Of a DNA stretch of 21,996 bases, positions 270 to 20,144 are shown in pieces (the stretch's first letter is position 1; every line of letters begins with the position of its first letter). The translations under genes were made by a program, and so were the position numbers. Below the pieces are notes generated by a model. The model searched no databases. It was not told where the DNA came from and saw nothing but the letters and a program-made list of their open reading frames with translations. The stretch is from Saccoglossus kowalevskii (lineage: Eukaryota > Hemichordata > Enteropneusta > Harrimaniidae): assembly GCF_000003605.2 (NCBI RefSeq), contig NW_003126903.1, forward strand, positions 35,761 through 57,756. Direction: 5' to 3'.

Positions 270-279
270 CTAGTCAAAT
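270..279 (-). CDS. Copy 1 exon 8: three-residue terminal coding exon
   Basis: After an intron of 574 nt ending in TTATAG, the sequence A TTT GAC TAG completes the split Lys codon and gives K-F-D-stop. The same acceptor, phase, Asp and TAG occur in copy 2 (19099-19090), where the middle codon is TGT (Cys). This parallel, the expected position of a terminal VWD cysteine and a downstream AATAAA support the exon. The coding part is so short that transcript data would be decisive. The alternative is intron retention, ending at TGA directly after exon 7. Confidence 0.6.
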
Positions 280-3200
280 CTATAACATAGATACATAAAT
301 ACATAGCTTTAAACTGAAAATTTGAAATGAAAATTACCACTGTAATATAGGATAATTCATCTCCAGATGGAATGCACATGCTGAATTTCAGACCAATCAA
401 AGAAATACGACACATGTGACTGATCAACGTTATTATAAATTTTCGCATTCAAACAATATCAGTTGAAGCACCTACTATTTAAGTAGAGAGATGAAAAATA
501 ACAAATTTGAAAGGAGAAATGTGGTAATAGTTTAAAGTCATTTTCTGTTTAGAGAAAAACCAATAAGCTTGCCAATCCACGTGACCAATCATAGAAAACC
601 TCTTTGATGAACTTTATACATAGATGCTAAAATCCGAAATTCTTTATGTTCATTGGTTCTAAAAAATAGTTTTCTACTTGTCATGGCGACAGAGATCACG
701 TGGGTGTCGTAAACCTTCAAAAAACTAGTATTTGATTCATACAGAAGTAAAATAACAGACAATAAGTAGGCCCTAGTATTTAGCTCAAAATTAATATTCG
801 TTGACCATGAGGTTGCAAAACGATGATGATGTAAAAATACAATTGCAACTCACTTTTTGTAATTTAATTTCCAGCTTTCACCAAACTCAAAAGCATCTTT
901 GACAATGCTACCATCTGGTTTCTGGAAGTCATTGCGGGGATCACCATCTGCATTACCCATCAGACCGCATAGCTTTCCGTTGTAAAAAGAGCCATTGTAG
1001 GATACATCTAATGCGTGCTTTCTCAGAGTCCAGTTAAGACTGAAGGTTGTGTCCTTCGAAGTGAAGTGCAGTTTAATATTTTTCTCTTCTTCCTGGATTG
1101 TTATATGTTTTGCGTCAGTCACCTGTCCACCTATACGTCCCTATGGGATGAATAATTGGTTAGCATCTAGTTATGATCAATGAATTTGTGAAAATTTAAA
1201 TTATGTTTGCAGCATATAAATACTACATACTGAGAACTTACTGTAGTAACATCAAGACCATCAATAATTGCGTATTGATTTCCAACAGTTACTTTAATTG
1301 CGACAGTTTTCGTTTTGATTTGGTCTGGGGTACTGTCATCCCTTGGTTTAAACTTGGTTGTGACTTCAAAATGGGGATTGTCGGAACAGTCCTTGAATAG
1401 AGAGTACCAGCCTATCCCTTGGAAATTATATGAACGCCCATCGAATGTCCTCATATGAGGTTCACCGTGATCGCCATGCCCTACAGAAAACAATGTTGTA
1501 TGTTGTATAATATTGTTCTGGCTAAACACATAAAACACGAGACTTACAAGTGAAAAAAAAAAAGTGATTGCTCCATTGAAATTTTGTTCAGTCATCTGCA
1601 GTAAAAATCGTAGAATTAACGTTTGCAAAACTTATATTATGTAAGCAAGAGTTGGTGGTTACAACACGCTGGTTTATTCAAAAGAATATAATTATATTTA
1701 CAAGCAGAAATACTGAGCCAAATAGCCGTTTTATAGAAAAGTTTTATTTGGCAAATAAATGGTTTACCACAAACACACTCAAGTGATAGAGCGAATTATA
1801 TTAAGAAGCTGGATCCTTTAGAACCATACTCACACTCGCAGAATGCATTGGCCCGTTTCACCGTACAATTAACGTCATTCCATTTGCCATCCAATTTCCT
1901 GTCAAACATAAGTTCATTAATTAAAATATAATTTCATAAACAATTTTTGTTTATTAGCATGTTTTGTATCAATGGGATTACCTTCGCGATCAAATGAATA
2001 TTTATGAAATTGTGTGTAATGCAGGAACAACCTCGCCCTCATTGTTTTTACGTGACATTAACTTACTTACCAGACTTCAACACAGTTCTCATTTCCAAGT
2101 TCATTATTTGGCTCGTCTTTATCCCAGTTGGTGAAATCAAGAGCTTCATTATTTGAGTAATAAGTGAAAGTCCCTTCGTGGTTTTCATCGGTTATACCAA
2201 GCCAATAAAATCCTAATAAAAAACGAGGCAAGATAAAACAAATACTTTATACAGATACAAAATTACTAAGTTTTTTGTTTTGTTTCATGATTAAAATGTT
2301 AGTTCGGAACAATTACGATATATCTATACTTGCAAGTATACCTGCCACATATAAGCTCATTATCGCGTTCATTTGGGCCAAAGTTTTTGGTTGTGCAAGT
2401 TGCCATCCCCACATAGCTTCACATCGGACTTTAGCTTCATACCAGTCCATTGGGCCTTCAATAACTTTATATAAGGAAGGTGGGTGACCTGCATAACAAA
2501 ACGATTAATGGTTAACAGCAACCCTATATACCAAGTAAGTGATATATGTTGGCAACTAAAAGAAGTAAATATTCTATGTAGCTGCTGATAGACAGTGTAG
2601 TTATGTTGATAGTATTTATATTCAATTATATATATATAACAAATTCATACAAATTGATATAATAGTAATAGTAATAATATTAAAATCGGGTTGAAAACAA
2701 ATTCCGTTGAATCGCAAGGTAAACAATAGTATACACACAATAATATCATTCAGAGTAATAAATGCAGTTGTGTGTCTACAGATATTTAATCTCATATGAA
2801 TACAGTAAATCACTTTTAAATGAAGCCAAATAATTGGGCGTAAAAATGTATGACACAGCATCTTAAATTCAAGCATTGAAACCTTTGTAATCTTTAACAC
2901 CGTGCATACATTTGTATCCTTTTAAATACTTGAAAATCATTGATATACAAACTTATATGGCATTTTCAGTGTTTAACTAACAACTACGAGCACTTACGCT
3001 TCTCAACCAATTCCTGGAAAAGAAAGAAAACAAAAATATTTTTTTTTTCAATGCAATTGAAGACAGTTCGCAAATGACCATTGTAACTGCCTGTCGTATT
3101 CAATTCTTTTCATCATCCACTTTCTCCATTGCTAACACTTACTAAAGACGTTTTCTGATGAACATTATATTTTGGAAACATTACCGGGAATTTACGAACA

Positions 3201-3706
3201 CAACTTTTATGACTGAAAATTGTGAAAACGGGAATATATAATACAAATCCCGTGCAATTTTGTATATTGCCTATGGTCATTGATGATGTGATACAAAGTA
3301 ATTCAGAATTTTTTTCAGAACTTGTGCACTTTTGATGAAACAAATAATAATAACTAACGGTTTTGATTTGCTAATAGAATGTTATACAATAACAAACGAT
3401 ATCAGGTCATTATGTGTCCGTGAAATAATATTTTGAATTTTCATAAACAATATTTCAAATCATTTATTTCTATGATGTAAAATTATCTCTGATGTATAGC
3501 ATACTTCTACATCCACTTGGCGTTGTGCCGTGTTGTAATAGAAGGGTGGTATATATACAAACTAAAATAACGTTGGTATGATGGCAATATTAGATGATTC
3601 GTGAATATACACAATACGTCGTAACTTAATAAAAGAGTGAGCCTACCTCGTGTGGGGCAGCTAGAGTCAAACTCGTAACCGCAAGGATCAATATTAAACG
3701 TAACAT
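270..3706 (-). CDS. Copy 1: secreted C-type lectin-VWD protein, 8 coding exons
   Basis: I built this gene by joining exons at GT-AG boundaries with matching phases: 3706-3647, 3013-2998, 2488-2342, 2212-2071, 1898-1834, 1480-1242, 1140-854, 279-270. The lengths (60, 16, 147, 142, 65, 239, 287, 10 nt) total 966 nt, or 321 residues plus TAG. The order is signal peptide (1-18), a short segment ending in EKR (about 21-26), a CTLD (about 32-142), a VWD domain (about 149-320) and stop. The mature protein has six cysteines (48, 118, 133, 142, 175, 281). By family rules these form C48-C142 and C118-C133 in the lectin fold and C175-C281 in VWD. The start was chosen because it opens a classic signal peptide. 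A sugar-binding secreted or matrix protein is inferred from the domains. The specific orthologue is not recognised. A diverged paralogue lies about 15 kb upstream on the same strand. Confidence 0.88.
854..1480 (-). CDS. Copy 1 exons 6-7: von Willebrand factor type D domain
   Basis: Exons 1480-1242 and 1140-854 encode residues about 145-318. The VWD signature GEPHMRTFDGRSYNFQG (usual form GDPHY.TFDG) comes first, then WYSLFKDC with Cys175, a hydrophobic VGNQYAIIDGLDV stretch, IKLHFTS, YNGKLCGLMGNADGD with Cys281 (usual form CGLCGN), NDFQKPDG and FGESWKLN. Intron 6 is 101 nt and phase 0. Departures from the family are Asp to Glu in GDPH, Gly167 where VWD has a Cys (GxCxY), and Met284 for the second Cys of CGLC. 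The last codon overlaps the donor: unspliced reading gives AAG TGA, while splicing at AA|GTGAGT continues to exon 8. C8 and TIL modules, often found after VWD, are not present. Confidence 0.9.
1834..2488 (-). CDS. Copy 1 exons 3-5: C-type lectin-like domain with EPN motif
   Basis: Three exons (2488-2342, 2212-2071, 1898-1834) encode a short-form CTLD, residues about 32-142. In order I see the opening YKV and GPMDWYEAKVRCEA helix with Cys48, WLGI (the WIGL core), TFTYYSN, NWDKDEPNN, NENCVEV with Cys118, WNDVNC with Cys133, and AFCE with Cys142. The EPN triplet (108-110) plus WND (128-130) form the standard calcium site of mannose-type lectins, so carbohydrate binding is plausible. Introns are 129 and 172 nt, phases 1 and 2. 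The extra N-terminal cysteine pair of long-form CTLDs is absent. The exon after this begins in phase 1 and turns the codon at the junction into Trp144, where copy 2 has Cys. Confidence 0.92.
2998..3013 (-). CDS. Copy 1 exon 2: 16-nt microexon
   Basis: The exon is GAATTGGTTGAGAAGC, preceded by a polypyrimidine run and CAG and followed by the consensus donor GTAAGT. It enters in phase 0 and leaves in phase 1, which exactly bridges exon 1 to exon 3. It encodes ELVEK plus the first base of an Arg codon, so splicing creates a dibasic KR just before the lectin domain, a possible proprotein convertase site. The short length makes it the least certain internal exon. The frame does not work without an exon of this phase. 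Confidence 0.72.
3647..3706 (-). CDS. Copy 1 exon 1: signal peptide
   Basis: Twenty codons starting MLRLILILAVTSLTLAAPHE. There is a basic residue at position 3, a hydrophobic core and a likely signal peptidase site after the Ala pair (residues 16-17 or 17-18). The exon ends on a whole codon (GAG) just before GTAGGC, so the intron is phase 0. An upstream in-frame Met exists at 3835, but its residues are charged and not signal-like, so I prefer 3706. Intron 1 is 633 nt. Confidence 0.85.
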
Positions 3707-3885
3707 CGTGGTTGTCTTTCCTGCAATACTCTTTAACGGAAAATGTTGTGTAGAGACGTCAGAGAAAGACTCATGCAACTGGTAGATTTGATCCGGTCGT
3801 TCGATTATAACAATTATTTTCTTGCTGACGTGCATGTTTGTATATTAATCTCTCCATTTGGAAGCATTTCTATTGGCCAAATAAA
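3707..3885 (-). promoter_or_regulatory. Possible core promoter of copy 1
   Basis: Upstream of the ATG on the minus strand are a TATA-like TTATAATCG (about 3803-3811) and a CCAAT box in GGCCAATAG (about 3870-3878). Their spacing suits a start site near 3775 and a short 5' leader. Such short motifs are common in AT-rich DNA, so this is a weak call. Confidence 0.25.
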
Positions 3886-4459
3886 TATATTGCACACGAA
3901 AGTGAATTATTTTGCGCATGCTCATTTTCATTTTTTACGCAGCAACTGCTGGTAATGCTGTAAACCATACATAGCTGAGAAATACACTAAACGTTTTCAC
4001 GAGTACCGCACACTACTGAGAAAAAAGCTAAATATACTTTCATACAACATTTGTACTTATGTCATAACGTCTAGAGTGAATCATATAGATTGAGTGAAAA
4101 TACATTGCCGCATGTGAGTCAAACATCTTTTTACTGAGACGATTCAAAGGTTTTTTATGTTCAAATTAGCTCTAATCATTGTTTACAGTGTGTTGCCGAA
4201 ATATTAAACTTCTATTTCAGAAATAACGTAGGCTGAATGATTGTTTACGCAAAATATCAGCATACATACATGCTCATATGCAAATGTTGAGTAAACATCA
4301 AATGTGTACATAATATCATGCTGTCATACTGTTCTGGCAGTTGACTGCTCAAAGGACACATGGAAAGTAATATTATTTTGATGATACATTTATGTCTACA
4401 TGTTACATTATGGAATTGTTGATCTCAAGATCAAAATAGTGAAGTCATACACACACATT
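3886..4459. other. Non-coding flank upstream of copy 1
   Basis: AT-rich sequence with no exon-like or conserved segment that I could find. It may contain distal regulatory DNA for copy 1. Confidence 0.4.
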
Positions 4460-4800
4460 GTCTGGAGATTGCAGTGGCGGCGGCACCGGGGGTCACCCCC
4501 TTGAAAAAAGTGTTGGGGGTATCGCCCCTCCCAAAATCAAGCCGAAATCCTATGTTATGTTATGTTATGTTATGTTATGTTATGTTATGTTATGTTATGT
4601 TATGTTATGTATGTCAGCTATATTTTCCCATCAAAGTGCAGGAAATAGCGTTTCAGATGGTCTAGATTTCAATTTTTCTAGGGTAACATGTCCCCGAACC
4701 CCCTAGTAAGGTCGCGCCTTCGGCCTTACGAATGGTGAGCAGGTCTCGCCCCCATGCACAATTGCGTTCCTCCGCCCCGGGATTGCCGTGTGCAAATGTG
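4460..4800. mobile_element. GC-rich interspersed repeat fragment
   Basis: A sharply GC-rich island in AT-rich DNA. It starts near CAGTGGCGGCGGCACC, contains GGGGGTCACCCCC, CCCCGAACCCCCTAG and a hairpin GTAAGG/CCTTAC at 4706-4729, and is split by a pentanucleotide microsatellite. Composition and palindromic short stems are typical of non-autonomous transposon copies found many times in invertebrate genomes. The class is not determined. Confidence 0.45.
4551..4614. repeat. (TATGT)12 microsatellite
   Basis: Twelve perfect TATGT units (4551-4610) plus ATGT. Short open frames reading YVMLC repeats across it are an artefact of the repeat. Confidence 0.97.
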
Positions 4801-5477
4801 AGGATTTCTGAAATGCATAAGTTTTTGTTCAAAACTAAAAATTAGAAAGAAAAACTAAAGACATGACATCATTATATTTTTGAATGGGCTAGCCAAGTTT
4901 TCCATATATGAAGATACACATACTATCTGATACTATATTTATTTTATTTCCACTTAATTCGTTAAAACTAATTCGCTTTATAATTTGTATGTATGTATAT
5001 ATGGTATCTATATTAAGTTTCTGCACTTGAAAAGTAATAGAATTTCACAAAAATAAGTATGTCTTTAGAGGCTTTTTTGAAAAGCTATACTTTTCTAAAT
5101 GGGTACCAGGTCTGTCTTGGAGTACCCTCCCCGGGGGTCTAAAGGTATATAACAATAAGGTTATGTAAGATCTTTATGTTATTTATTTTTCATACTTGCA
5201 TATCAACAGTTAAGTTTTCTATCTACATGAAAGGCTTGCTTGGCGGTTTACGCGACCCTCGTCCTAATCTGACATCAGCAACAGTGGAAAGCCCTATTTT
5301 ATTGCACAGACACCTATACCATTGTGTAGTTTCATATTTCAAAAGGATTGGGGATATATAAAATGCCTCTCGCATCTCTCTGTAACAAATAACTCTATGA
5401 CTTCATAAACAACTACATAATTGTATTATATGAAGATAGATACTTTGATATTCTGCCGTGATTTTGCTCAAAATAAT
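4801..5477. other. No gene recognised
   Basis: AT-rich apart from small GC-rich patches (CCCTCCCCGGGGGTC near 5125), perhaps decayed pieces of the same repeat family as 4460-4800. Confidence 0.35.
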
Positions 5478-5687
5478 TTTAAAAAGCATCTTTCTATATC
5501 AACTAAATGTATATTGAAATGAATGATTTTCGTCATCAGACTCTGTGAATCTAACAATGCCGTGGATGATAGCATTTTGGTGCACTGAATTGTTATTCAG
5601 GATGCAGGTGTGCATTAAAACCCAGTCAGCATAATGATAGGATTATATCAACTATTGTCTATAATTGTAAACAATGGTTTGATTGGC
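5478..5687 (+). mobile_element. tRNA-like SINE candidate, copy A
   Basis: It shares an extended, gapped match with 12987-13194: CTCTGTG..TCTAACA.TG, GTGGATAA/GATAGCAT-TTGG, ATTAAAACCC.GTCAG, ATCAACTATTGTCTATAATTG and TTTGATTGG. The start resembles a valine-type tRNA with an A-box-like GTGGAT segment and a decayed B-box-like TGCATTAAAACCC. Two dispersed copies with no coding content support a SINE. The ends are approximate, with no poly-A tail or target duplication resolved. Confidence 0.5.
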
Positions 5688-5789
5688 ATTTCGAATGCGA
5701 GCCATACTTCACTCAATTTTAAAAGAATATTTCTAAATTGTATGATGAAATTCGTGGAGACATAGTCCACGAGCAAACGACATTCGAAC

Positions 5790-6600
5790 TTATGCACTAG
5801 AAGAGATTTCTTAACCTGAAAAAATAATGGTACGATTGTTAAGCTATTCTTACAAATGGTGAAACATTAATGAGTCGAACACACGTAATCTTATTCGTAT
5901 GCTCATTTATTGACCCCAATCACTGCCCTGTCATCATCGTGTATTGACCCCGAGCGACATGTGAATATACACAAATATGTATATTCTAGAAGAAATTGGT
6001 CAGGATTTCTTAAGCTGAACAAATAATGGCGCGTTTGTCATTCAAGCTATCTATACAAATGGGGAAAACACTGAATGTTGAAAAGTTACACACACGTAAT
6101 CGTATTCGTATGCTCGTTTATTGACCCAAATCACTGCCCTGTCATCATCGTGTATTGACCCCAAGCGACATGCGAACATTCGCGCAAAGGTAATCTCTAG
6201 AAGAAATTGTTGAGGATTTCTTAACCTGAACGAATAATGGTGCGTTTGTTGTTTAAGGTATCTATGCAAATGTGGGAAAACGTTGAATGTTGAAAAGTCG
6301 AACACAGGTAATCTTATTCATATGTTCGTTTATTGACCCAAATCACTGCCCTGTCATCATCGTTTTTTGACCCCAAGCGATATGCGAACATACACGCATA
6401 GGTATATTCTAGAAGACATTAACCAGCATTTCTTAACCTGAACAAATAATGGTGCATTCGTTGTATAAACTATCGTTACAAGTGGGGGAGAACACTAATG
6501 TTGACTGGTCGAACACATATACTCTTATTACTATACTCGTTGATTGACTCCCATCACTATACTATCATCGTGCATTGACTCTAAGCGATGAAGTGTTATC
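5790..6600. repeat. Satellite of about four 200-212 bp units
   Basis: Successive units start at about 5806, 6005, 6216 and 6428, each with ATTTCTTAA(C/G)CTGAA, then AATAATGG, GAACACA-GTAATC, TTTATTGACCC, ATCACTGCCCTGTCATCATC and ATTGACCCC-AGCGA. The last unit is the most diverged and fades by about 6600. A partial unit may precede 5806. Units 2 and 3 look most alike. Open frames inside are not conserved between units, so it is non-coding. Confidence 0.9.
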
Positions 6601-8149
6601 GTTGTGCCCCAAGCATTTTCCTGTTATCGTCTTTATTGACGATAACATTCATGAAGTTGGTTATCAGAGACATCAGAAAGCAACATTGGCAGTCCTTAAT
6701 TGTCTGCTTCTACCTATGTGTAAAAGAAATAACCTGATCAACCGTGGAATCGAGCAGTCATACAATGTTACATGTAACAATATGGGGTAGGTACGCCATT
6801 TTATCGATGATCAGTTATAAGTGAATAATGAGACTGCAACAATTAAACGTGCATATATGATTAAAAGAGCTTGCATAATTCCGCAACCAGTTTTTGTGAA
6901 GTTCAATAAACATAAAGATCGTTCAGTTGTCTAGCTTGAAAAAAGTTAAATGCGATGACATTGGTTGCAGATGCAAATAAAAATCCCAATTATGTAATGA
7001 CAAAATCATGATTGATTGATAATTATATTATATCATTGTCAATACCAGGGGTGATATATACAAGTAAATGTGATGCACGACGTGGGAGTTTGTCTATAGA
7101 GCGCGGGCACAGAGATATGATGTTTTTTTTCTGTTTTTGTAGCCAGTAGTACTACACATTTTGCGAAACGAGATCAAGACCGACGTGACATTTATTTCCT
7201 CAGTGCAACTTCTCGGTGATTGTCACAGTCCGGGCACAGTTTGCATGAACGAATAACAATGACATCCACCTTCATGGTTTGAAAACACTCGAGGACAACA
7301 TAAATGTACCCAGGGTACACACCTCTACGCACAGGCCACGGCTGACACCAAGACGGCGTACCAGTCACAGTGTGCCGTTCGCTCTGGCGATCACTATAAT
7401 GCTACTCCACGCCACTCACCAGTCACTCGACAACTCGCAATGTAAATTGTTGAATGAAAACTAGTTTCTTTCTCAGTTTATCATATGAGATTGGGGAAAC
7501 AGTTATCAAAAAGACATTTTAAATTATGAAAATTCACGGGCCAGTGGCTGAAAACTGTTCCGTTCACTGCTGATTTCTCTCCAAAGTTAGTGGCAGCAAA
7601 TCCACTGGACAAGGCTACGAAATAATAACAAGAATGAACTCCCTGGTTCATTATTGTTTCATTATTCGTCTTGATACCTCAAGACCAATCAAAGTCTATG
7701 GAGTAGGGCAATAAATAGAAGTGTAATCAAGTTTATAATGATTCACAATTACGGCACTTCGGACAATGTAAATGTAAACTGTTCTAATCTGAGTGCTATG
7801 CTATGTTATGACACGTTTATGGTTTGAGTAGCAATTGGAATAATTTTGATCTTTTTATTTTATTTTATTTGCATTCACGTAGTGTATTTTTAATTGAAAA
7901 TTATATATCAGTAAATGTTTTTGGAATGAGTTTGCCAATTATATTTAGATAACAAAATATGGCTTGGGAGCAATATTAGGGTAATCCTTGACAACAATGG
8001 TTTAAATAGTATATTTTGGGTGATTTATTTGTTCAAATATTTAGTTTGCCTTAACACACCTCACTCATTCAATTGCTAGGGATTAACTGTGAACAAAATC
8101 GTCACAGTCTTTCTGCATATAGCATATAAGCTATAGTATTGAGCCTCGT
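6601..8149. other. No gene recognised
   Basis: Mostly AT-rich DNA. The 61-71 codon plus-strand frames here show no domain, splice context or repeat support. A moderately GC-rich patch at 7180-7440 also has no identifiable content. Confidence 0.35.
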
Positions 8150-8440
8150 ATATGCCTCTTATCTACTTATCTTGCATGGGTGATTGAATGGAAACTTTAC
8201 CATCTTGCAACTTCACTTGCATCAGTGTCTTCTGGTAACAATTCACTGTCACTCTCTGCAATACCATGCTGTTTCTCACCTTTCAGCGTGACCCATAAGT
8301 TTTCCCATGTCTTCCGAGAGGTTCAACTTGACCTCCTCTGTATTTCTTACCTTCATGAATGTGACGTCTTCCAGGATATAACTTATCTATCACTAGATCG
8401 GGTATTTCCATAACTTACCCTATTCAAAGTTCACTCAACC
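8150..8440 (-). other. Coding-like minus-strand stretch, unassigned
   Basis: From about 8412 down, an open frame reads MEIPDLVIDKLYPGRRHIHE and on to YGSR then TGA. The next frame continues VTLKGEKQHGIAESDSELLP to a stop. The composition is protein-like and GC-richer than the flanks, and it lies just beyond the retroelement tail. It may belong to that element or to another degraded one. I do not recognise a domain. Confidence 0.3.
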
Positions 8441-8799
8441 CACCTGATTAAACTGATTGTGCATTAACAGTCTATAGTTGCTTCAGCCTATCCACAATTT
8501 CTTTGCATGGCTCTGAAATACTCATGTCTTGTATTCAGCTTTTAGCATAACGTTTCTGCCACCGCTCATATCATGATGGTGCTCTGTTCAGCTTCTTTGA
8601 CCACCTTACTACTGGGGTTCACCCTCCATTTCCGTGATTAGTTTCTTCTCAAATTATATTTTTGGTAGTTTGCCAGTTTTCCCTGGTGAGAAGCATCACT
8701 GGTACATCCACATCATGGGTATCCCTCAGTAGAACAGGGCTTCTACATTAATTTGGGGTGGAGTTATCATAATTACATCCTCCATGACGTTGTTTACCA

Positions 8800-9125
8800 A
8801 TCATTGGGATGTCGTGGGGGCATTTTTACCACGCAAAATTCGGGAAGAAGTTTTTCGGCTGTAAGTATTTGGCTAATGGAACAGAGTTGTTTGCTCCACC
8901 CTTCCAATGACATAATCATCTTTTAAAGCTTCCTCATCGGATTGAACGTTCTTGTTACCTCTTTTACCATAACATCAACCAATTGCGATTTCTTTCTTTT
9001 TCGAGACACTGCATATACTGGTATATCAGGATTGGGTTGTGCGAAGAAAGTAATCTTTTATATGATCATTTCTGCTAACTTCTTTATATTTGTAATCATT
9101 TTGCCTTTTGCGCACGTTTGTTCAT
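8800..9125 (-). pseudogene. Weak integrase C-terminus and tail
   Basis: VRKRQNDYKYKEVS (about 9117-9075) resembles the basic region before the integrase C-terminal fold (usual R-RQK-YYD-K). Further on, SDEEALKDDYVIGRVEQTTL (about 8945-8885) is an acidic, open stretch. The frames are broken. I could not find the HHCC or DDE residues. Confidence 0.4.
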
Positions 9126-9440
9126 CTGTTATCAGTCAGGTCAAAGGTTAAATTAATAGGATAAACAGCCAATGTCAATAGAGTAGCAAAGGTGTTAAAA
9201 ATAAATTAAGTATTGGAAAATTGTATGTGCCAAACGCATGCTTTAAGGTTCAAATGTTGTTCTTTTTGTGGACTCTCAAAGCCCTCAAAATCTAATATAA
9301 TTACATGTAAGTATGTTTTCTTCATAAACTAGTGTTCGCAGTTCCCTTTCTGCATACCAGAATATTTGACTTTGTCCTTAAACAAAAGAGGTCAGCACTA
9401 AATACAAAGGAAAGTTTATCAGCTTAAAGTGGATTTTGAT

Positions 9441-10289
9441 TGTCACGGTGTTATAATCCAAATCTCCCCTGGAAGAGTTGTAAACAGAAATTTTCATATG
9501 TTGTGTTTCCTCTGATTACCGGGGTTCCGGACCAATCACTCTTCATAGTATAGATTCCTTTACCTATTAGTTATATGGCAAACTTATTTCCCACAGAACT
9601 TTTATATGCTTCTTTTGATGCTAGTTTTTTTTATAACTGGATTTCTTGTGTGCTTATGATTTACATAACAAAGGGTGTTTACAACTTTGATAGGACAATT
9701 GGAATCTACCATGTGTGCTGTTATTTGAATAACAATAGTTGTTTATGATCTACTGACTTGCCTATGTGACACAGGTGCTAGCAAGATCACATTCAGATTG
9801 GCTCATGTGGAAACCCAGGTGGTGTCACTGAATCTGGGCCATTTATGCCTATAAATTGGGCAGACTGGGGACAGTTGAGGTACATCATCTCTAATGTGTA
9901 TCCTGTGTGTAGCTACTGCGATATTGTGAGACAAGTGATACATGCTTCAATCATCGATCTGTGAGACTCGGATGAACTGCTCTGCGATCTCCTGTTTTCA
10001 GCGGTACCCTCCAGAATACCATCGTTCCTCTACAAGACTACTATATTTCTTCGTTGTTGTGTTGCAAGAGCCATTGACTGTCATCCGTTTCTACATCCTG
10101 GAACTGTGAGTTATCACCAATGCACACTTCCCTAAGCAATCCCATATTTTAGTGACTTTATTCATTTTTCTGTGTTTTATTTCTTGTAATTATTTTGAGA
10201 GGTATTAAAGCCAGGAGCTTTAGAGAAAGAACCCCTGTCCAGTGTGGATGGCCCTCTCAATTGCTATGACCAGGTCTTACACCGTGACA
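9441..10289 (+). mobile_element. LTR-like block with 11-bp inverted ends
   Basis: It begins TGTCACGGTGT (9441-9451) and ends ACACCGTGACA (10279-10289), a perfect inverted pair with TG...CA ends as in many gypsy LTRs. On the plus strand there is a TATAAAT (about 9850) and an ATTAAA (about 10203), which would suit an LTR promoter and poly(A) site. No coding sequence is seen. It interrupts the RNase H region, so it is probably a solo LTR nested in the older element. The flanks (TTGAT and CATCC) do not form a clean duplication, so it could instead be this element's own 3' LTR after loss of integrase. Confidence 0.55.
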
Positions 10290-10294
10290 CATCC

Positions 10295-10490
10295 TATTTT
10301 GTTTGGAACAGTGCACATGTTACCTACCGGTTACTATAAGTAATTACTACATTTGGTTATCCTTCATACAAATCAATTTCACAGTTATAGCCCATTTCCA
10401 TAAAACCAATTTATGACTGCATAGTTCATTTCTGCTGCTGTTAAACCATCGCTTGCATATGCAACTGGAGTCATTGTTGTCTTTCCATTT
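10295..10490 (-). pseudogene. RNase H fragment, interrupted
   Basis: PVAYASDGLTAAEMNYAV (10470-10415) matches the gypsy RNase H segment usually P-V-AYAS-R-L-AE-NY. A second frame continues ITYSNR, a stop, VTCALFQTK, like the YTDH block but with TDH altered. It stops at the LTR-like block at 10289. Short related sequence (SADLF, cf. the usual NADALSR) may resume below 9440. Confidence 0.75.
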
Positions 10491-10624
10491 ACCATATCTT
10501 CTTGACTCAAGGTTGAACCTAAAAACTGATATGAGCCTCAAAAGGAAGCTCATGATGTGCTGTTATGATGTGCTAAGATTTTCTAACAATATATAAAATA
10601 TTATCTTGAGTGCAATCACTCGAT

Positions 10625-10925
10625 GTGTTTGTCAAATGTGGTTTACAATATAATATCATCATCTAAGTATATGAACAATGTTTTGAGGTTCAGCCCATCT
10701 AAATAACTGTCGATATTGCAATGAATTTTGCAGATGCATATTGCAAAACAAATGGCACTCATGGGCAATTCTAAGGTAGTGGTAAAAGCAGTCTTTGGAA
10801 AATCCTTACTGACCATGTCAATTTACCAGTACCAACTCTTCAAGACAATGCATGGATACCTGGTACTGCATATGAGTTTCGTACAGTACTAGTATTCACC
10901 TTCCTGTAGTCAACACATAGTCAAA
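10625..10925 (-). pseudogene. Reverse transcriptase fragment
   Basis: LCVDYRKVN (near 10920-10895), then VRNSYAVP, then DFPKTAFTTT (about 10815-10785), a shifted frame with CN..LQ, and finally YLDGLNLKTLFIYLDDD ending near 10652. These are the RT blocks D-YRK-N, KTAF and the catalytic YLDD. Stops follow YLDDDIIL and occur before and between blocks, and at least one frameshift separates KTAF from YLDD, so it is inactive. Confidence 0.88.
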
Positions 10926-11362
10926 CACATTGCATTATGGGTACTAGGTGATCAATCATATATCCTCCAAGTTCCACCCAATTACAACCAAGCCTTGTTC
11001 TTCCCATTATTGACGTAGGCTAGTGTTGTTTAATCTCCAAAGGATGCCTCCACACCTCAATTTGTTTTCATCACTCCCGAAAATTGCCCTTGGTGCTCCA
11101 ATCCATACATGGTGATTCGCTACCTGGTATGATTCTGTCATTTGCTATCTCTCTGTAACTTGTCTTGTACTGGTTCAGCAGATTGGTTCATGTTTTCAGT
11201 GGTATATATTGGCTATATTTGCTCTAGTTACCCAAGTACAAAAACATTTTGTTCTTTCTCATCATCAAAAATCTCAGACGGAAATACTATGCCTGCATTA
11301 ATATACCTGCACAGACATTACCCTGGGCCAAGTTTTTTTCTTACATTCGTCTATAATTTTGG

Positions 11363-11449
11363 ACAGTTCTCGGAAATATGCCCTTCCTGATTGCAGTTTG
11401 AGCATCTTGGAGCCAATTACTCATTTGCAAAACAATCACAGTTGAAACA
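11363..11449 (-). pseudogene. Gag nucleocapsid zinc knuckles
   Basis: CSNCNQEGHISENC (11404-11363) is a perfect C-x2-C-x4-H-x4-C zinc knuckle for nucleic acid binding. Just before it, 11449-11402 encodes CFNCDCFANE, a stop and LAPRC, a first knuckle that has lost its His and gained a stop. Adjacent upstream sequence (about 11455-11660) reads as gag-like protein including KTFAQLMS. Confidence 0.8.
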
Positions 11450-12309
11450 ATGAATAGATTTCTTCTTGCCATTTCTTCCACATTGAGTCAGGTTGATCTG
11501 GTATATTGAGTTATAGGATGCCCTTGGAATTTATTCCAGTTTGGCTAACTTCAAACAGAACTACAGCACTTTTCACTATCATTTCCTGTTCTGTAACTCT
11601 GTTCATGCTCATCAACTGAGCAAATGTTTTACACTGCTCATACTGATGTTTGATAGACATAATCATTTTGTCATTTCACTACCCCCAAAATATGACCCCT
11701 CCACGACCATTCCTAAAGCTTGCATCAACAGCTAATGGAACAAAACCATCTCCTGGACACGCTAGATTCATCACTCCTCTGCATTGGTACCATACTGGCC
11801 ACTGATTTATGCCCTCCTGGTCATCTTTAGAATTATATACATATACATCTTCCAACTTTTAGATTATGCTGAGAATTGATGAATTCTTGTCCAGGTGATG
11901 AACTACCTGACTGGCCATCACCAGATACTGCACTTCAAAATAAATGTCTTTCCCAAAATATTATCTAGACTTGACTGTTGAGAACAATTCACAGACCCTG
12001 TGGGCCTGGACACCAAACCTTCCTGTAAGTGTGCCTTTGTTCATGTTAAGTGAATATAATTGAGAGTGTGTTTTTATATAGAAGCTTCACATATTGGCCG
12101 AAAGATTGGGGGCATGGCTTTTCGTACCATAATTAGTCATGCCCAACATCAGTTGCTGGGCAGATTTCCAAAGTTCATCTTCTCACTGCATGATACACTC
12201 ACTGGACTTACTTCGCAGAAACAGTTTGCCTCTGTGCACATGATCATCTCCATCTAGTGTATGTAGTTGATAATAATCATCATCTGGTTAAGGTTTCAAA
12301 TGTGTTTAA

Positions 12310-12425
12310 TCCCCCTGCTCTCCCCAATTGTAGAGGTCCCACAATACCACCAGGAACACGCCAAACTTGGAAAAATTGGGATCCATATATATATACCCTA
12401 GACCCCTTCCCGCTTTTATAAGGTC
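12310..12425 (-). promoter_or_regulatory. Possible retroelement promoter and leader
   Basis: On the minus strand TTATAAAAGCGGGAAGGGG is a good TATA box context, followed by GTTCCTGGTGGTATTGTGGG and GGGGAGAGCAGGGGG, which look like a retroelement leader upstream of gag. No LTR boundary is seen here, so this is a guess from position and composition. Confidence 0.25.
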
Positions 12426-12986
12426 TGTTCGCACCTTTTATTGTGAACTGGAGTCACCTTTTCTTTGCTCTTCATATCTATAAAAACTCTCTTTCCGCCA
12501 CAGCCTTAAGTGGTCCTGAACAAAACAGTAATGACACTTACTATGAATGTCGCCCTTGAAAGCCAAGATCAACTTAGTAACCGGATAATACCCTACTTAG
12601 AATTCATTAATGTGTAATCCACACACGAAAAATAAAAAAATATTAAATTCAGTCTCGTTAACAAAAACAATGTATTATTAGTGATTATGTTGGTGTTTTA
12701 TTGTTTCTGCTTGACGCCTCAATACACAAAGTTTTAATTCCAATCAAACACCATGTTCCTCGAATATCTTACCTTCTGTGTGTTCTTTTTCATGAGTTGT
12801 GTCTATGATGTATCTGTTTTTGCCGGTGGTCTATAGTATTTAAATATTAGGCTAAACAATATAAATAAACTTCAGTGTCCATGTTTATTTGTCTTTGTTT
12901 GTACATATCCTGTTTTCAAATGTGGTTTAATCGCGTGACAGAAAAAATGAAAGTGTTTCTACACTTAGATGCCACTTTTCAATTGT

Positions 12987-13194
12987 AATTTCAAAAAGCT
13001 TTTTCATACATAAATATTTGTATGGCGAAATAAATAACAACATTATTTGTCAGTCTCTGTGGTTCTAACAGTGTAGTGGATAACATGTTGGTTCAGTAAA
13101 TCGTTAATCGAGAAGCAGATGTTCATTAAAACCCGGTCAGGACGGTGGTTTACATCAACTATTGTCTTTATTGACAAGATAGGCTTTGATTGAC
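12987..13194 (+). mobile_element. tRNA-like SINE candidate, copy B
   Basis: The closest tRNA-like form is CTCTGTGGTTCTAACAGTG, TAGTGGATAACATGTTGG, then GTTCATTAAAACCCGGTCAG. The preceding AAAAAGCTTTTTCATAC also aligns with copy A, so the element may begin near 12987. It lies about 7.5 kb from copy A in the same orientation. Confidence 0.5.
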
Positions 13195-13494
13195 AGATCT
13201 AGTGTGACCTGTAGTCGTATTTTACTACTTCGCATAATGTACAAAAAACCTCCCTAAACTGCTTTAAAGAAAAATTAGGTCTAAAACAATTTCTTTTCTA
13301 TCGCCAGTGGGCGGTTGGTAGATGCGAAACATGATGAGCCCGGTGACCAGTAATACTGAATCGAGTGATGCAACCTGTCGTCACTGATACTAGTCACAAT
13401 ACTGCACGGTATGTAGGGGACTATTTTGTGAATGTTAATTGGCAAAGTAATTAACATTAAAATAGTGATGTTTTATGGCTGGAAAATAGTTAAA

Positions 13495-13524
13495 CGATAT
13501 ATATATATATATATATATATATAT
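13495..13524. repeat. (AT)15 microsatellite
   Basis: A simple dinucleotide run within AT-rich intergenic DNA, after GTTAAACG. Confidence 0.95.
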
Positions 13525-15175
13525 CCATTGTTTTAGTGATGATCAGTGTACATCCGGATCGTCGTTTAATTAATGACAGTATTATATAGTTTTAAATTCG
13601 TATGTGGGGGCGCTATAATATTTTTTGCTATCATATTTCATTGCTAATTAGAATTGTCTATGGTTTACAGTTTCATTCATATTTTGATTGGCTGTTCTAT
13701 AAAAATGTAATATCATTTTCTTCTCTCCAGATGCCATTTTATGTTTTATTTATATTGCATAAACCTGAATACTATTATTGAAATACCGTTATAATATATA
13801 ATCGCTGTGTATAAATTGTTTATATACTTTGTATGTCTCCTTGTTTTGTTCTCGTCCACTGTGTGTCACCAACGTAGTTTTTTTTTATTTTTTATTATAT
13901 TACCATTATGTAGTATGTCGTATATCGCTGTTTTAGAACCGTGGAATAATACCCTGCTTCTGAATTCTGGATTTACAAAAGTTCTCTACACTCGGGCTTA
14001 TGTTTTATTGTATGTTGCCGATTGATATTACCTGCTTTCAAGTAGCACTGAACCATATAAATTAATGTCTCCAAGCAGTATTCCGATAAAATAAGCCTAT
14101 GTACTGTATTTGCCTGTGGTTTTCCTATGGAGTAGATATCTCGTCACTGTAAACCTAAAATTTACTTATCGGAAAAAAAAAATGTTATTCTGACCACTAA
14201 CATTTCAAATAGACACATTAGCTGATCTTTCCAGTGATATTTCCTATTAGTAAAATCGTTTTGTCAACTTTGTTATACAACTAACATTTATAGATTCATC
14301 CAATTATGTTCTACATTAACACAATTACAAGCGTTTACTTATATTCTGTGTATTTTTTTGTATTGAAGAAATATACTGTTTTGTATATCTTGCCCATAAT
14401 TGAAGGAAATTATTGTAGTTTTCTCATGGATTTTATTTTCTATGCAGAGAAACATTGTATTCTGAGTAATTTCATACTAACAGACATTTCATCAGTTTAG
14501 TCTGGATTATCTAATACTTACAGGTTGAAAGACGTTACTAGTTTCTCTGTGCTTTTTTCTATCGAGAGACAACTGTGTTACTTAGTAGTCTAACATAGCT
14601 GCGGATTTTCATAGTTTCCTGTGATTTTCTATCACAAACCAGTACATTTACAAATTTTCTCGAAAATCAACAAAATAAAGTGTTGTTGATGATTATATCT
14701 AGTGTTCATATTTCGGCATTTATTGTAATCTCTCTGTAATTTTAGTGTTAGTTAGTGCAAAATAGTTTGTCAACATTTATACAGACATTGCTTGTTTTCT
14801 TTCTTCTTTTTTCTATCGAGAAAACGTTGATGTATTTTGTAATAATCTTGTTTTTGAGTACACATTAATTTTTCAAGTTTACCTAACATTCTGTGTTAAG
14901 TAATATCGTAAGTGTTGCAATTTATTTGTGGCTGTAGCATTTTAATATCATACTTTTTAGCCATCCGTGTATACATGGTATATTACGTTTTCTAGGTAAC
15001 TCAGTTAATGGGATATATCTCATATCGTTTTTTTTTTATATTTTATAGAACTCTTATAAGTTTTTAGTTAAGGTAATTGAAGTGACACTAGTATTATCAT
15101 CTTTAAAACATTGTTGCAATACCCAATATATGTTTACTTGTTATCTCACTTAAAGCAGATAACTAGCTTGTTACA

Positions 15176-15199
15176 AATAATAATAATAATAATAATAAT
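15176..15199. repeat. (AAT)8 microsatellite
   Basis: A simple trinucleotide run. The open frame across it (IIIIII) is an artefact. Confidence 0.95.
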
Positions 15200-16189
15200 G
15201 CAGTCCACCAACGTCTTGCTCACTAGAAGACCAAAGATAACGAACTATGTTGCATCATATGTGAGAGACAAATACTATGTGTTGAAAAATCAAAGTTAAA
15301 TGTCAATTAAAACAATGTGCACGCAAAAAACATTAAGAGATATATCAAATGAAAGCACATTATTGTTCCCTCTGATAGATCTACAATAGAATCAGCGTTG
15401 TTACCTGCATTATTTTTTACAATTTTTAATGCACTTTATTTTTTGACTTCTAACCATATACGTTGGTGTAACGCTGAAGCCGGTACATTTATTATCTGAA
15501 CACATAGACGAATACTAGTTTACTGCGTCCTACTTGCCATTCGCAGGGGACGCTGTGAACCATTGAACGTCCAATCTCAGTAATGTAATACCCTCGCTAA
15601 TACATGTAAATAATCAGTCCAGATTTAAAACACAATTATATCATCGCTAGGATCATTATATAATCAACATCACTTGGGCCAAATTTAACGTTGGGGCGCT
15701 TTTCAGTGTCAGAGAGTTTATCTATAGAATACACAGGGTGAGGGCGCTGTACGAAAATGTTATCATAAATTCATTCGTAGAAATTGTGAAGAGTACTCAC
15801 AATCACGCGCCATAATTCAGAAATGTTGGCAGGGTTTCGTATAGTTGGACACATTAATTGTAAATGCGAACTCACAGTACAAGCGTAATTCATTTGGTAG
15901 TTTGAGTATACAAGAGTTGATAGACAGAATTACCATACCGATTATCTGCACGGTTAAAGAACCCATCAGCGGTCAGCAGTTCTTGTGATAAACGAGAGAT
16001 GGTGTCACCCAAGAGTCACTGAAAATTCAGGTTTTAAGGAGGAGGCCGACTGCTTCCCACAGTGCTGTCTCAAAATAAGTGTGAACACTATGGGAAATAT
16101 GTGTTGACTAATTCAAACTTGCAAGCTAAACTAATATCTCTACTATGGGGGGGGGGGGTAACTCCACCATCTAATGAGTGTACTTTTCA

Positions 16190-17040
16190 ACACGACAACG
16201 ATTCTTACAGCCGTTCTGGGAATTATTCGAACAGTCAGTTAGCAAAATGATTTGCAACTTTGAAAAACACTTTGCTCTTTGTCCAATTGACGGTGCCACT
16301 TGATTGACGGGAGCGTAGTTTAGGGTTACTATTGCATAGGGGTTGTCGGCATGGCGAATTGCAAGTATTATCTAGCGTGCGTTTACAGCAACCATTCTTT
16401 ATTTTTTATATTTATATTGTAATTATTTTCAGTAATTTTAAAAATCGTATGTTGCGTGTTGCTTAAATTTGTCGAAAAATGTCAACCTCTCGCTCATTTA
16501 GTCAGTTGTAGCTGTCACAAACATGGACTAGACATAATAACGGTCGTCATACCCCGTCATTTTCAAACTGCAGTTGGAAAAGTGATTCGCACAAGGAAGG
16601 CACTTTTGATTTGACAAAGTCCATCAAACCGTTATAATCGAGTATCCGTCCGTGTATCCCTTACGTACTCTCCCACCTCGGTATAAAATCTGAATTTGAT
16701 ACATAATGCACCAGTAATGTAACAACAAACTAAGCTAAGAAACTTTACCTTTGAGCCTTCCGTGAAGTTCATTACTACCTGTAGTTACTCACCACACGGG
16801 AGTTATTTTGTAAATTGCAGGTGGACTCAGATACAACATATAACCTGTTAATGTATGGTAACCAACGCGTGTCGTTTTGAAAACAGCGTTTTACCCGCAT
16901 CTAGCAAGATTGTGGGCGTACCAATACAACGGCGCCATCAAGTCTAGATTGGAAAATGACCCAAGTGTTTTGCAAAACTCCAAGATATATTGCTAAATAA
17001 TTCTCAGAACGGCTGTAAATACAACGATTTCTTCATGGTC
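16190..17040. repeat. Diverged inverted repeat, arms about 90 bp
   Basis: Left arm 16190-16290 (TTACAGCCGTTCTGGGAATT and AAAACACTTTG) matches the reverse complement of 17035-16950 (TTACAGCCGTTCTGAGAATT and AAAACACTTGG), with about 660 bp between. Shorter inverted matches may extend outward (AATTCAGAAAT..TTGGCAG at about 15813 and 17050-17075). It could be an old transposon or an inverted duplication. No open frame is recognised inside. Confidence 0.55.
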
Positions 17041-17444
17041 TGAAACACAGCTCTGCCAATGATTTCTGAATTGTTGGAAAATTAGAATATTAGTATATTA
17101 TCTTTTTTCGACTTCGCTGATAGTGATTTCTAGGCTAATTAATATTCATCAACTCAATTCCTTATTAAGAATATCCTTATTAAATATATGACAAATAGTA
17201 CTTATACCACGAATCCTTGTTTTCATAAGTTACTCATACAGCTGCAATCACTATGAACAGTGCTCACCGTCATGCAATCTCGAATAAAACACTCACAGTG
17301 CAAGGCTAGTTCATCAACATGTCTATTCTCTTGCTTGAGTGTGAAAGTACATGGTTTAGTGACGACCTCTGTTTTTTTTAGAAAGTAGAATTTATTTTAT
17401 TTGGGAAGGGTCTTCTATAAAAATATAACAGATGTAATGAATAA

Positions 17445-17768
17445 ATTTTAATATTTTATTGTAATTTCAACACTAGATGTGGTCACTGGCTTGAAAATGG
17501 TAGTATCGCAGAAATTGAGCTGGAGATCGACTGCAAGCCCCCATGGGTACAAGTTATAATATGTTTTGGGGTAAGTGAATGAACTGTATACCTTCATTAA
17601 TTAGAGCATCATTTGATGTTCACTGCTTGTAATATTGTAATTAATTAATTTTTATATTTTATTTTAATTTCAAGACTAGATGTGATTCACTGCCTGGAAA
17701 ATGGTATATCACAAAAATTGAGCTGCAGTTAGACTTCAAGCCCCCATGGGTACAGGTCATAAGTCCTT
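17445..17768. repeat. Tandem duplication with 203-bp period
   Basis: 17449-17565 and 17651-17768 align along their length with small indels: TATTTTATT-TAATTTCAA-ACTAGATGTG, AAAATGGTA, AAATTGAGCTG and AAGCCCCCATGGGTACA. In unit 1, 17477-17570 is open for 31 codons between an ACACTAG acceptor-like and a GTAAGT donor site. Unit 2 has lost that frame. Confidence 0.75.
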
Positions 17769-17769
17769 G

Positions 17770-18790
17770 ATCAATTATAATGTTTACATGGTAGTGTATG
17801 TTCTCAATACCATGTATACAGTGAAAATAAAGAAAAAGGGAGAAGTTCTCGCAAAGCATGATTAGAAGTACACCTTCAAATATGGAGTTACTCAACTTAT
17901 TCATGCACAAATAAATAGAAAATTACATTAATATAGAAAATTACTTTTCCCAATCAACGACTCACAAATAAAAAAAAACATGGTACAGTCATGTCAACTG
18001 GAAAGACAATCGAATTCAGCCTCGAAACATTACCAACACAGAGAAAGTTATTGTAATGCCTTAAGTCGATACTAAATGACTTTTGTTATCTCGTTCTTGT
18101 TATGTTTATCTTGTTTTTTTAGGCGTGTGTCTAGTAGTACAATCGCAACATATATAATATCTGATATCGATAAAGTATGATTCCTAAATGCTTGGATGTG
18201 TGAGCAAATACATTTGGGTAATTTAATATTGTTTACTGGTTTTTAATTTCACTATTTCGAAAGTAAGTAAAATCCGCTAAATTAAAAAATTGTAAAATGA
18301 CAAAAGAACTATTTTATATGCAAAATTTATCAAAATAGTGAAACGGTTTAATTGTGCAATGTAGTTACCAGTTATATACACTGTGAAGAATTCAGATCAC
18401 CATGAACACAATCTATCGATGTTTTGCCGTATTAGTGTGTCGTTATCATTACAACAATGGGGGAGTCTTGTGTATATTGATAGGAATTTATATGTACTGA
18501 TCCCCTTCCCGCCTCAACGGTAAGAGATGTCGGGAGGCAATTTTTACTTTTTTATATTCAACATTTGCAGACTACACGGTTATATTAAACCCATTATATG
18601 GTTATGAGAGCAAGATATTATTAAAAATTAGTATCTTGATATAATATCTCAAAATCGGTTTTTAGGTTTTTGGTTAAACAAATTCCAGGTTTATCGACGT
18701 ACAACTTATTACCCACTGTTACATTGCTTATTCGCACATTCTACCAATCATGCTAGAAACTATCTGCTTGCAGTTACCTGGAAGACTGGG
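17770..18790. other. Intergenic DNA downstream of copy 2
   Basis: No exon recognised on either strand. Detectable similarity to the 3' flank of copy 1 begins near 18795 and runs right. The window starts at the aligned position in copy 1, so whether similarity extends further cannot be judged. Confidence 0.4.
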
Positions 18791-18848
18791 GAATAGTGTT
18801 GTCGTATTTGTAACATAATTAGAACTCAAACGTTTTTTTCCACATCTT

Positions 18849-18854
18849 TGTATT
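18849..18854 (-). terminator. Variant poly(A) signal of copy 2
   Basis: AATACA occupies the aligned position of the copy 1 AATAAA, within conserved flank (GGTTA-TTCAATA). It is a weaker known variant hexamer, so 3' end formation may be reduced or use another site. Confidence 0.35.
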
Positions 18855-19089
18855 GAATTAACCTTTATACATTACTTATCTACTGAATACCCACATTTGC
18901 GATGTATAATCCATTTGATATAGCGTCATTGAATATAATGAATCAAAACCATACTGCTTAACTACAAATCTAAATATCATAATTGTTGTATATTACACAT
19001 TATATCATCACAGATAATGTTGAAAAATCCAAATATCTAAAACTGATAAAGATGTTACCACGTTCGTCCTTTCCCCAGTTATGGCATTC

Positions 19090-19099
19090 CTAATCACAT
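19090..19099 (-). CDS. Copy 2 terminal coding exon with Cys
   Basis: After TTATAG the sequence A TGT GAT TAG completes Lys and adds Cys, Asp and stop. The intron is 155 nt. The Cys sits where VWD domains have their last conserved cysteine. Support comes from matching position, phase and stop in copy 1. Confidence 0.6.
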
Positions 19100-19254
19100 C
19101 TATAATATGAACATATACAAATGATTAAGCTATATAAATTTGTGAAAGAAAGATATTACCACTGTAATATCTCAGCATAATGATTAATTTAAAACCGTGA
19201 AGTAAAGAATGTAATTTTTTTATAATCAATGTAATACTTTTACAAACAACTTAC

Positions 19255-19898
19255 TTTTTGTCATTCAATTTCCAGCTTTCGCCAAATTCAAGAACGTCTT
19301 TGGCAATGCTACCATCTGGTTTCTGGAAGTCATTGCGAGTATCACCATCTGCATTACCCATTAGACCGCATAGCTTTCCATTGTAAAAAGAACCAGTGTA
19401 GGATACATATAATTCGTGCTTTCTGAGAGTCCAATTAAAAGTGAATGTCGTGTCTTTCGAAGTGAAGTGTAGTTTAATACCCTTATCTTCTTCCTGGATT
19501 TGTATAACTTTTGCGTCAGTCACCATTCCACCTGTACTTCCCTGTGAAATAAACAAGTGTTGTGTATCTAGCTATGATCTTTGAATTCATAAAAAAATGA
19601 ATTAAATTATGTGTGGCACATCTCAATTCAACAAATTGGCAACTTACTGTAGTAACATCCAGTCCATCAATAATTGCGTATTGATTTCCAACAGTTACGT
19701 TGAATGCGATTGTTCGTGTTCTGACTTGGTCTCGCCATGGTGTACTATCTTCTCTTGGTTCAAACTTGCTTGTGACTTCAAAACGAGGGTTGTCAGTGCA
19801 GTCCCTGAATAGATAATACCAGCATGTGCCTTGGAATGTATAAGCACGCCCATCGAATGTCCTCATATGAGGATCACCGCTCACTCCATTAGGAGGAC
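19255..19898 (-). CDS. Copy 2 exons 6-7: intact VWD domain
   Basis: Exons 19898-19648 and 19541-19255 carry GVSGDPHMRTFDGRAY, GTCWYYLFRDC, VGNQYAIIDGLDV, KLHFTSKDTTF, YNGKLCGLMGNADGD and FGESWKLND. The canonical GDPH and the GxCxY cysteine are both kept, unlike copy 1. Exon 6 is four codons longer than in copy 1 (extra residues before GDPH and a WR after STP). Over exon 7 and its split Lys I count 79 of 96 residues identical to copy 1. The donor AA|GTAAGT again overlaps an in-frame stop (AAG TAA). The second Cys of CGLCGN is Met in both copies. Confidence 0.9.
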
Positions 19899-20079: not shown

Positions 20080-20144
20080 ACTCGCAGACTGCATTATTTT
20101 CTGCTGTTTTACAATCATAGTCATCCCATGTTAAATCGCTAGCC
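20080..20144 (-). CDS. Copy 2 exon 5: end of CTLD
   Basis: At 65 nt it is identical in length and phase to copy 1 exon 5. It encodes LTWDDYDCKT and NNAVCE, then a split Cys codon completed by the next exon, giving CEC. WDD replaces WND, so the calcium-site asparagine is also changed. Acceptor GACAG and donor GTGAGT are both strong. Confidence 0.85.

Follow-up and report, generated by a model that had tools for sequence, protein, structure and literature searches.

The stretch of DNA analysed here, 21,996 nucleotides from the hemichordate Saccoglossus kowalevskii (contig NW_003126903.1, positions 35,761 to 57,756 of the forward strand; hereafter the window), contains two genes with a VWD domain, both on the minus strand and referred to as copy 1 and copy 2. 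Copy 1 very probably belongs to a group of seven genes in which one bridge of the VWD domain has been lost pairwise. The bridge would join the cysteine of a GTC motif in exon 6 to a cysteine in a very small final exon, of the form x-C-D/E-stop or a variant of it, and, thereby, tie the C-terminal tail to the VWD core. In a branch of five genes with GIG at this place, the first cysteine may have been lost once, by a change from TGC to GGC, and the tail cysteine, then without a partner, would have been lost several times by missense or stop codons. The loss would be tolerated because the fold could be preserved by what remains, namely the calcium-type loop and the DC-KLC bridge, the second one of the VWD domain; its likely effect would be a looser C-terminal tail and altered stability or an altered interface, not a dead domain.

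The exons that encode the two VWD domains lie at the ends of the range 270-19898, which runs from copy 1 exon 8 to the 5' border of copy 2 exon 6:

1242 to 1480, minus strand: copy 1 exon 6, first half of the VWD domain, with GEPH and GIG (GGC at 1410-1412)
854 to 1140, minus strand: copy 1 exon 7, second half of the VWD domain, with CGLM
270 to 279, minus strand: copy 1 exon 8, A-TTT-GAC-TAG (KFD-stop), without the terminal cysteine
19648 to 19898, minus strand: copy 2 exon 6, first half of the VWD domain, with GDPH and GTC (TGC at 19822-19824)
19255 to 19541, minus strand: copy 2 exon 7, second half of the VWD domain, with CGLM
19090 to 19099, minus strand: copy 2 exon 8, A-TGT-GAT-TAG (KCD-stop), terminal cysteine at 19096-19098

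At the first site, exon 6 reads FQGTCWYYL in copy 2 and FQGIGWYSL in copy 1, while at the second site exon 8 gives KCD-stop and KFD-stop, respectively. From copy 2 to copy 1 the codons change from TGC to GGC (1410-1412) and from TGT to TTT (276-278), which confirms the preliminary description in that copy 2 has cysteines in GTCWYYL and KCD and both are missing in copy 1. Exon 7 ends with SWKLNDK-AA/GTAAGT in copy 2 and with SWKLNYK-AA/GTGAGT in copy 1, and intron 7 measures 155 and 574 bases, respectively. Exon 8 lies within a block that is alignable between the copies and has an identical TTATAG acceptor in both. Inside the window alone the case for pairing is weak: the VWD domain of copy 2 has four cysteines, and random loss of two would strike a bonded pair in two of six choices. 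The paralogues of the same genome were therefore read.

A search of the species' own genome (572 Mb) gave 157 matches; from the 150 matches listed, 62 pairs of exon 6 and exon 7 were formed, with 7 first halves, 16 second halves and 3 full-length matches left unpaired, and 42 of the 62 pairs were read. The matches belong to a large gene family of secreted VWD-domain proteins that is expanded in this genome, and scans of viral contigs and genome contigs found no relatives outside it. At the GTC site, 35 of the 42 loci have cysteine (Cys-type) and seven have glycine (Gly-type: L010, L011, L014, L015, L016, L018 and L017, which is copy 1). Two unpaired first halves, L052 with GTC and L053 with valine, were not counted because no exon 7 lay in the fetched DNA. 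The further paralogues, to which the preliminary description had looked for a check, agree with it: a last mini-exon with cysteine as its second residue (x-Cys) is found in 33 of the 35 Cys-type loci, the exceptions being L049 (an unclear SCP) and L034, and none of the seven Gly-type loci has a cysteine in the aligned exon. Hence, in all 40 loci scorable at both sites (of the 42 read), both are cysteine or both are not (33, 0, 0, 7; Fisher p 5.4e-8, with kinship ignored). The loss that had been ascribed to copy 1 is thus real but not private to copy 1, as it is common to seven genes. The paralogues also support copy 2 as the older state at both codons.

The terminal mini-exon, which had been proposed from the two copies, is very likely real, as judged from several features of the sequences. 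The donor of exon 7 was found by rule in 39 of the 42 loci and stands at the same distance from the tryptophan of the SW motif in 37 of 42 (one codon nearer in L049 and L050); L024 and L026 have the donor GTATGT at the usual position, and the end of exon 7 is missing in L034. A DNA profile of the exon-8 block, built from both window copies and not requiring the cysteine, matched in 11 loci, nine of them beyond the window, and the TTATAG acceptor is present in 12 of the 12 nearest loci. The profile found four Cys-type loci (three beyond the window), namely L009 (KCD), L012 (KCY), L013 (KCD) and L022 (KCD), and seven Gly-type loci (six beyond the window), none with a cysteine. The tails of the latter are K-stop in L010, KRF in L011, KSD in L014, K-stop in L015, KRF in L016, KFD in L017 and K-stop in L018, with TGA, CGT, AGT, TGA, CGT, TTT and TAA, in this order, as tail codons; a stop thus replaces the tail cysteine in three of the seven. 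In the Cys-type loci outside the profile set, except L049 and L034, an acceptor is followed by x-Cys-[D/E/N/A], with extra residues before the stop in six of them.

Evidence for a bond between the two sites comes from a homologous domain. In the crystal structure of FCGBP D10, a C4097-C4255 disulfide is reported that would hold the cleaved fragments together, and the VWD region ends at C4255 (PMC10880436). In a phmmer table, residues 10-175 of the query correspond to 1-167 of chain 8qci_B. The GTC cysteines are in register in the printed alignments, which cover other FCGBP chains but not 8qci_B. When P4081 is taken as residue 1 of 8qci_B, C26 of copy 2 (GTC) falls on C4097 and W174 on 4246. 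Moreover, the glutamine of FQGTC aligns with Q4094, a change of which reduces Asp-Pro cleavage in FCGBP D10 (PMC10880436). The pairing of the GxC cysteine with the last VWD cysteine, which the preliminary description had given for VWF D3, is borne out for FCGBP D10; both cysteines of this type of bond are present in copy 2 and both are absent in copy 1. By analogy, the GTC and tail cysteines would be bonded to each other in this gene family. In VWF D3 itself, the pair that we take to be equivalent is C889-C1031, and the alignment to VWF is consistent with these numbers (GEC at 889, alignment end at Q1030).

Trees were built with the trait codons left out. A single clade unites copy 2, its sole Cys-type gene, with the seven Gly-type genes (100/99 with DNA, 96/86 with protein sequences). 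Within it, L011 and L016 are sisters (GTG, tail codon CGT), while L010, L014, L015, L017 and L018 form the GIG branch (89/59), with copy 2 adjoining (97/88 for copy 2 and these five). In the protein tree, two changes at the GTC site are forced by the starred branches; these are compatible with two separate losses as well as with a loss and a regain. Since the GIG genes are alike at the first change and unlike at the tail codon, loss of the tail cysteine probably followed that of the GTC cysteine in this branch and happened on more than one occasion. For exons 6-7, the ratio of nonsynonymous to synonymous divergence (dN/dS) is 0.17-0.37 in six pairs of Gly-type genes and 0.16-0.29 between copy 2 and three Gly-type genes, which indicates that the proteins are still under constraint by purifying selection. 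The synonymous divergence (dS) between copies 1 and 2 amounts to 0.38 for the VWD exons, compared with 1.26, 0.94 and 0.62 for lectin exons 3, 4 (in part) and 5, respectively; the dN/dS of exon 5 is 1.1 on 21 codons. Intron 6 is 71% identical between the copies (72/101). This identity and the lower dS of the VWD exons suggest that VWD parts have possibly been exchanged by gene conversion.

The second VWD pair, DC and KLC (KxCGL), is Cys/Cys in 41 of 42 loci, both window copies included, and the place of CGLC is occupied by methionine in both copies and by methionine or leucine in the family, with no cysteine in 42 rows (in this anchored alignment, L034 and L041 are unsure). The CGLC cysteine is one that we take to be of the VWF C996 type, holding strand 1, and the strand-1-holding bridge of FCGBP thus seems absent from the family. 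The loop motif GNADGDxxND, presumably of the calcium type, is retained. The cleavage motif is GDPH in copy 2 (19867-19878) and GEPH in copy 1 (1455-1466); since changes of its Asp to Ala or Asn block the cleavage of FCGBP D10 (PMC10880436), copy 1 is probably uncleaved by analogy. Glutamate replaces this Asp in three of the seven Gly-type genes (L015, L017 and L018), and L014 has NDPH. A tie between the loss of GDPH and the lost bridge was considered and rejected, because glutamate occurs in only three of the seven and because L022 and L034 have lost the motif yet keep the cysteine.

Several points weigh against the paired loss of a bridge, some of them concerning the sample. The 20 pairs left out of the reading are mostly more distant and, once kinship is considered, only two independent contrasts remain, both as predicted (sign test p 0.5). 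Copy 2 is not a clean reference because the frame of its lectin exon 4 is broken. The tail cysteine stands at W+7 in the window and at W+9 (C4255) in FCGBP D10 by the P4081 numbering. L047 keeps DC and has lost KLC (KLCGL to VGGLL, with Gly in place of the KLC cysteine), and L018 has CEPH, with cysteine replacing the Gly of GDPH; single cysteines without an evident partner therefore do occur. L047 retains GTC and the x-Cys mini-exon despite its KLC loss. Furthermore, most Cys-type mini-exons were chosen by their cysteine, with only four found by homology that did not require it, and the controls therefore matter. Short-exon candidates were required to be short, to have an acceptor score of at least 4.5 and to lie no more than 1,300 bases from the donor. 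Of the 32 Cys-type loci in which the rule located a donor, 26 have cysteine at residue 2 of their best-scoring candidate, the exceptions being L009, L012, L013, L020, L030 and L049. Across all candidates of the Cys-type loci, cysteine is residue 2 in 35 of 140 on the sense strand vs. 3 of 90 on the reverse strand, and the corresponding counts in the Gly-type loci are 2 of 28 vs. 1 of 12. The two Gly-type candidates are KCFN in copy 1 and NCK in L018; early cysteines are also offered by NRCFN in copy 1 and, under looser limits, by KCRR... in L015 and by KCFLNTRMAM in L010, 2,314 bases past the donor.

The first of these candidates leads to another structure for copy 1, in which 270-279 is skipped and an alternative 3' exon is used:

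471, minus strand: first base of the rival 3' exon, within a part of intron 7 that only copy 1 has (TAGTAG/GTGC), which would give KCFN-stop

Copy 1 would then end with KKCFN-stop, keep its last cysteine and have lost only GTC, which we consider very unlikely. With a matrix derived from the 11 acceptors of these two genes, and with the exon base counted, the acceptor before 471 is the best of 38 AGs in copy 1 (7.90 vs. 6.38 for exon 8, which ranks fourth), and its exon would place the cysteine at the same distance from the tryptophan; the acceptor of exon 8 in copy 2, too, ranks only second of 26 AGs. However, the order is reversed when the exon base is omitted (7.8 for KFD vs. 5.7 for KCFN), the stretch around 471 has no counterpart in copy 2, and the exon alignable across the nearest paralogues is 270-279. 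Moreover, the six other Gly-type genes have no cysteine in the aligned exon, and among their short-exon candidates cysteine is residue 2 or 3 in only one of the six genes (L018, NCK, score 4.5). It is also quite unlikely that the coupling reflects shared descent only, with one ancestor having lost the first cysteine and copy 2 having recovered cysteine at both sites when a Cys-type paralogue converted it. A single clade of all seven Gly-type genes is not rejected on the DNA tree by the approximately unbiased (AU) test (p 0.144), and the VWD dS below the lectin dS between the copies suggests exchange. Nevertheless, the tail codons are of four kinds (TTT, AGT, CGT and TGA/TAA), so that the tail cysteine was not lost in a single event; a conversion restoring both sites must cover exon 6 to exon 8, and in the protein tree copy 2 falls beside the five GIG genes, to the exclusion of L011 and L016.

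Decay of the Gly-type genes as pseudogenes, with the cysteine losses as neutral debris, would fit the stops in place of the tail cysteine in three of the seven and the broken lectin exon of copy 2 in the same clade. This is highly improbable, given that none of the seven has a stop among the aligned exon 6 and exon 7 codons, that the dN/dS values of the six pairs are low, and that the reading frame of copy 1 continues through 321 codons with every splice border present. Intermolecular bridges, by which the tail cysteine and the GTC cysteine would each be bonded elsewhere and not to each other, are used by the D3 assemblies of VWF and MUC2, in MUC2 via C8 and TIL cysteines; the direct bond between the equivalent residues in FCGBP D10 and the concordance of the two sites in all scored loci make this extremely unlikely here. 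Another idea concerns the retention of intron 7, upon which the first whole codon past the donor would be a stop in 37 of 39 loci. The mini-exon might then act as a splice-controlled disulfide switch, in which retention ends the protein just before the tail cysteine and leaves the GTC cysteine free for intermolecular bridges, and the Gly-type genes would, if so, be a fixed, always-open form. We give this idea very little credence, and the usual donor GTAAGT yields a stop in this phase automatically. The pairwise loss of one VWD bridge in seven genes remains the favoured explanation.

Beyond the VWD domain, copy 1 has eight exons with GT/AG borders throughout and a 321-residue open reading frame, in the order signal peptide, C-type lectin domain and VWD domain. 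In copy 2, exons 3-8 were identified; a search for exons 1-2 in the 1,195 bases ahead of exon 3 did no better than with shuffled sequence, and the end of the window is also that of the contig. The remaining exons are as follows:

3647 to 3706, minus strand: copy 1 exon 1, signal peptide, hydrophobic MLRLILILAVTSLTLAAP, read from the sequence
2998 to 3013, minus strand: copy 1 exon 2, with GT/AG borders
2342 to 2488, minus strand: copy 1 exon 3, first part of the C-type lectin domain, CEAMWGWQLA, without the extra cysteine
2071 to 2212, minus strand: copy 1 exon 4, second lectin part, with EPN
1834 to 1898, minus strand: copy 1 exon 5, third lectin part, with WND; junction codon T/GG (Trp)
20661 to 20801, minus strand: copy 2 exon 3, first lectin part, with the extra cysteine (LGC, codon 20722-20724)
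20371 to 20511, minus strand: copy 2 exon 4, second lectin part, frame broken within the exon
20080 to 20144, minus strand: copy 2 exon 5, third lectin part; junction codon T/GT (Cys, CEC)

The Pfam VWD model (PF00094, curated cut-off 22.9) matches copy 1 with 76.6 bits (E-value 3.4e-21) and copy 2 with 92.8 bits (3.6e-26). Lectin_C (PF00059, cut-off 22.6) matches copy 1 with 52.6 bits (9e-14), with EPN and WND present, and the lectin domain of copy 2, searched as two pieces, with 41.7 and 20.7 bits, with WDD where copy 1 has WND. In full-length copy 1, which ends at exon 8, Pfam finds only Lectin_C and VWD, and none of the C8 and TIL domains that follow VWD in a D assembly (VWD-C8-TIL-E). The two ends of exon 4 in copy 2 lie in different frames, while its flanking exons and the VWD exons are open, which is indicative of either a pseudogene or an assembly error. 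Among the loci read, about a dozen have an N-terminal C-type lectin domain, including both window copies. A third lectin-VWD gene of the eight-gene clade, L010 (C1956:21267-26879), lies on the same contig and the opposite strand.

Copy 1 has six cysteines in total and the readable exons 3-8 of copy 2 have ten, with the lectin domain read as two pieces. Besides the VWD sites, these include a second pair, namely the extra cysteine after the first lectin cysteine (20722-20724 in copy 2) and that of CEC at the exon 5/6 junction (20080 and 19897-19898), which is predicted to form a disulfide. In ten loci the two go together, both being present in L009, L010, L011 and L016 and neither in L014, L015, L017, L018, L022 and L026; L012 lacks the extra lectin cysteine and has a different linker cysteine (SGCH), and L013 has the same linker, its exon 3 not having been found. 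This distribution over the paralogues led to a revision of the initial view, by which copy 1 would merely have lost two bridges that copy 2 possesses: the lectin pair might have been gained at the base of the eight-gene clade and then lost, as a pair, in the branch of copy 1.

Six open reading frames between the genes had no Pfam match at 0.01, and nothing in the window was detected with Rfam (at gathering scores) or in a tRNA scan. The window also contains a tandem array at 5805-6548 (211-base unit, 3.6 copies) and microsatellites of TATGT (4551-4614) and AATTA (20533-20644).

Compared with known systems, copy 2 shares GDPH, FQGTC with its cleavage-aiding glutamine and, presumably, the bond from GTC to the last VWD cysteine with the D10 VWD of FCGBP (PMC10880436). 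Unlike FCGBP D10, copy 1 has neither C8 nor TIL by Pfam, both copies have methionine at the CGLC place, so that the strand-1 bridge after cleavage seems missing, and copy 1 is also without the GTC bond and carries GEPH. The register of the G-x-C, DC and KxCGL cysteines and the NxDGxxxND loop are shared with D3 of VWF and MUC2 (alignment to VWF); however, a full D assembly is present there, whereas here a stand-alone VWD domain stands behind a C-type lectin domain and the tail cysteine has a 10-base exon of its own. For the lectin domain of copy 1, in which EPN and WND are kept, the best matches in the PDB include the collectins SP-D and MBP-A, but copy 1 has no collagen part and its lectin domain is fused to VWD.

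Paired loss of disulfide cysteines is itself already known, and it has been given as a general rule that such cysteines are gained or lost in pairs (PMC7456536, citing Thornton 1981; Rubinstein and Fiser 2008). The present case differs in that a final mini-exon consists mainly of one partner, whose codon has disappeared in several different ways within a single genome. In the accessible literature on lectin-VWD architecture, VWD last exons and paired loss, no description of such a mini-exon was found, which is no proof of absence. An impression from two copies has thus become a within-genome comparison, in which dozens of paralogues retain a final exon of some three codons, whose cysteine codon is missing wherever the bridge partner is missing, having been lost by several routes that include stop codons. 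This provides sequence evidence on which VWD cysteines pair, and on the order of loss in one branch. The mini-exon is likely to be missed by gene finders. The comparison also marks VWD domains that are predicted to retain only one of the bridges of VWF and the mucins.

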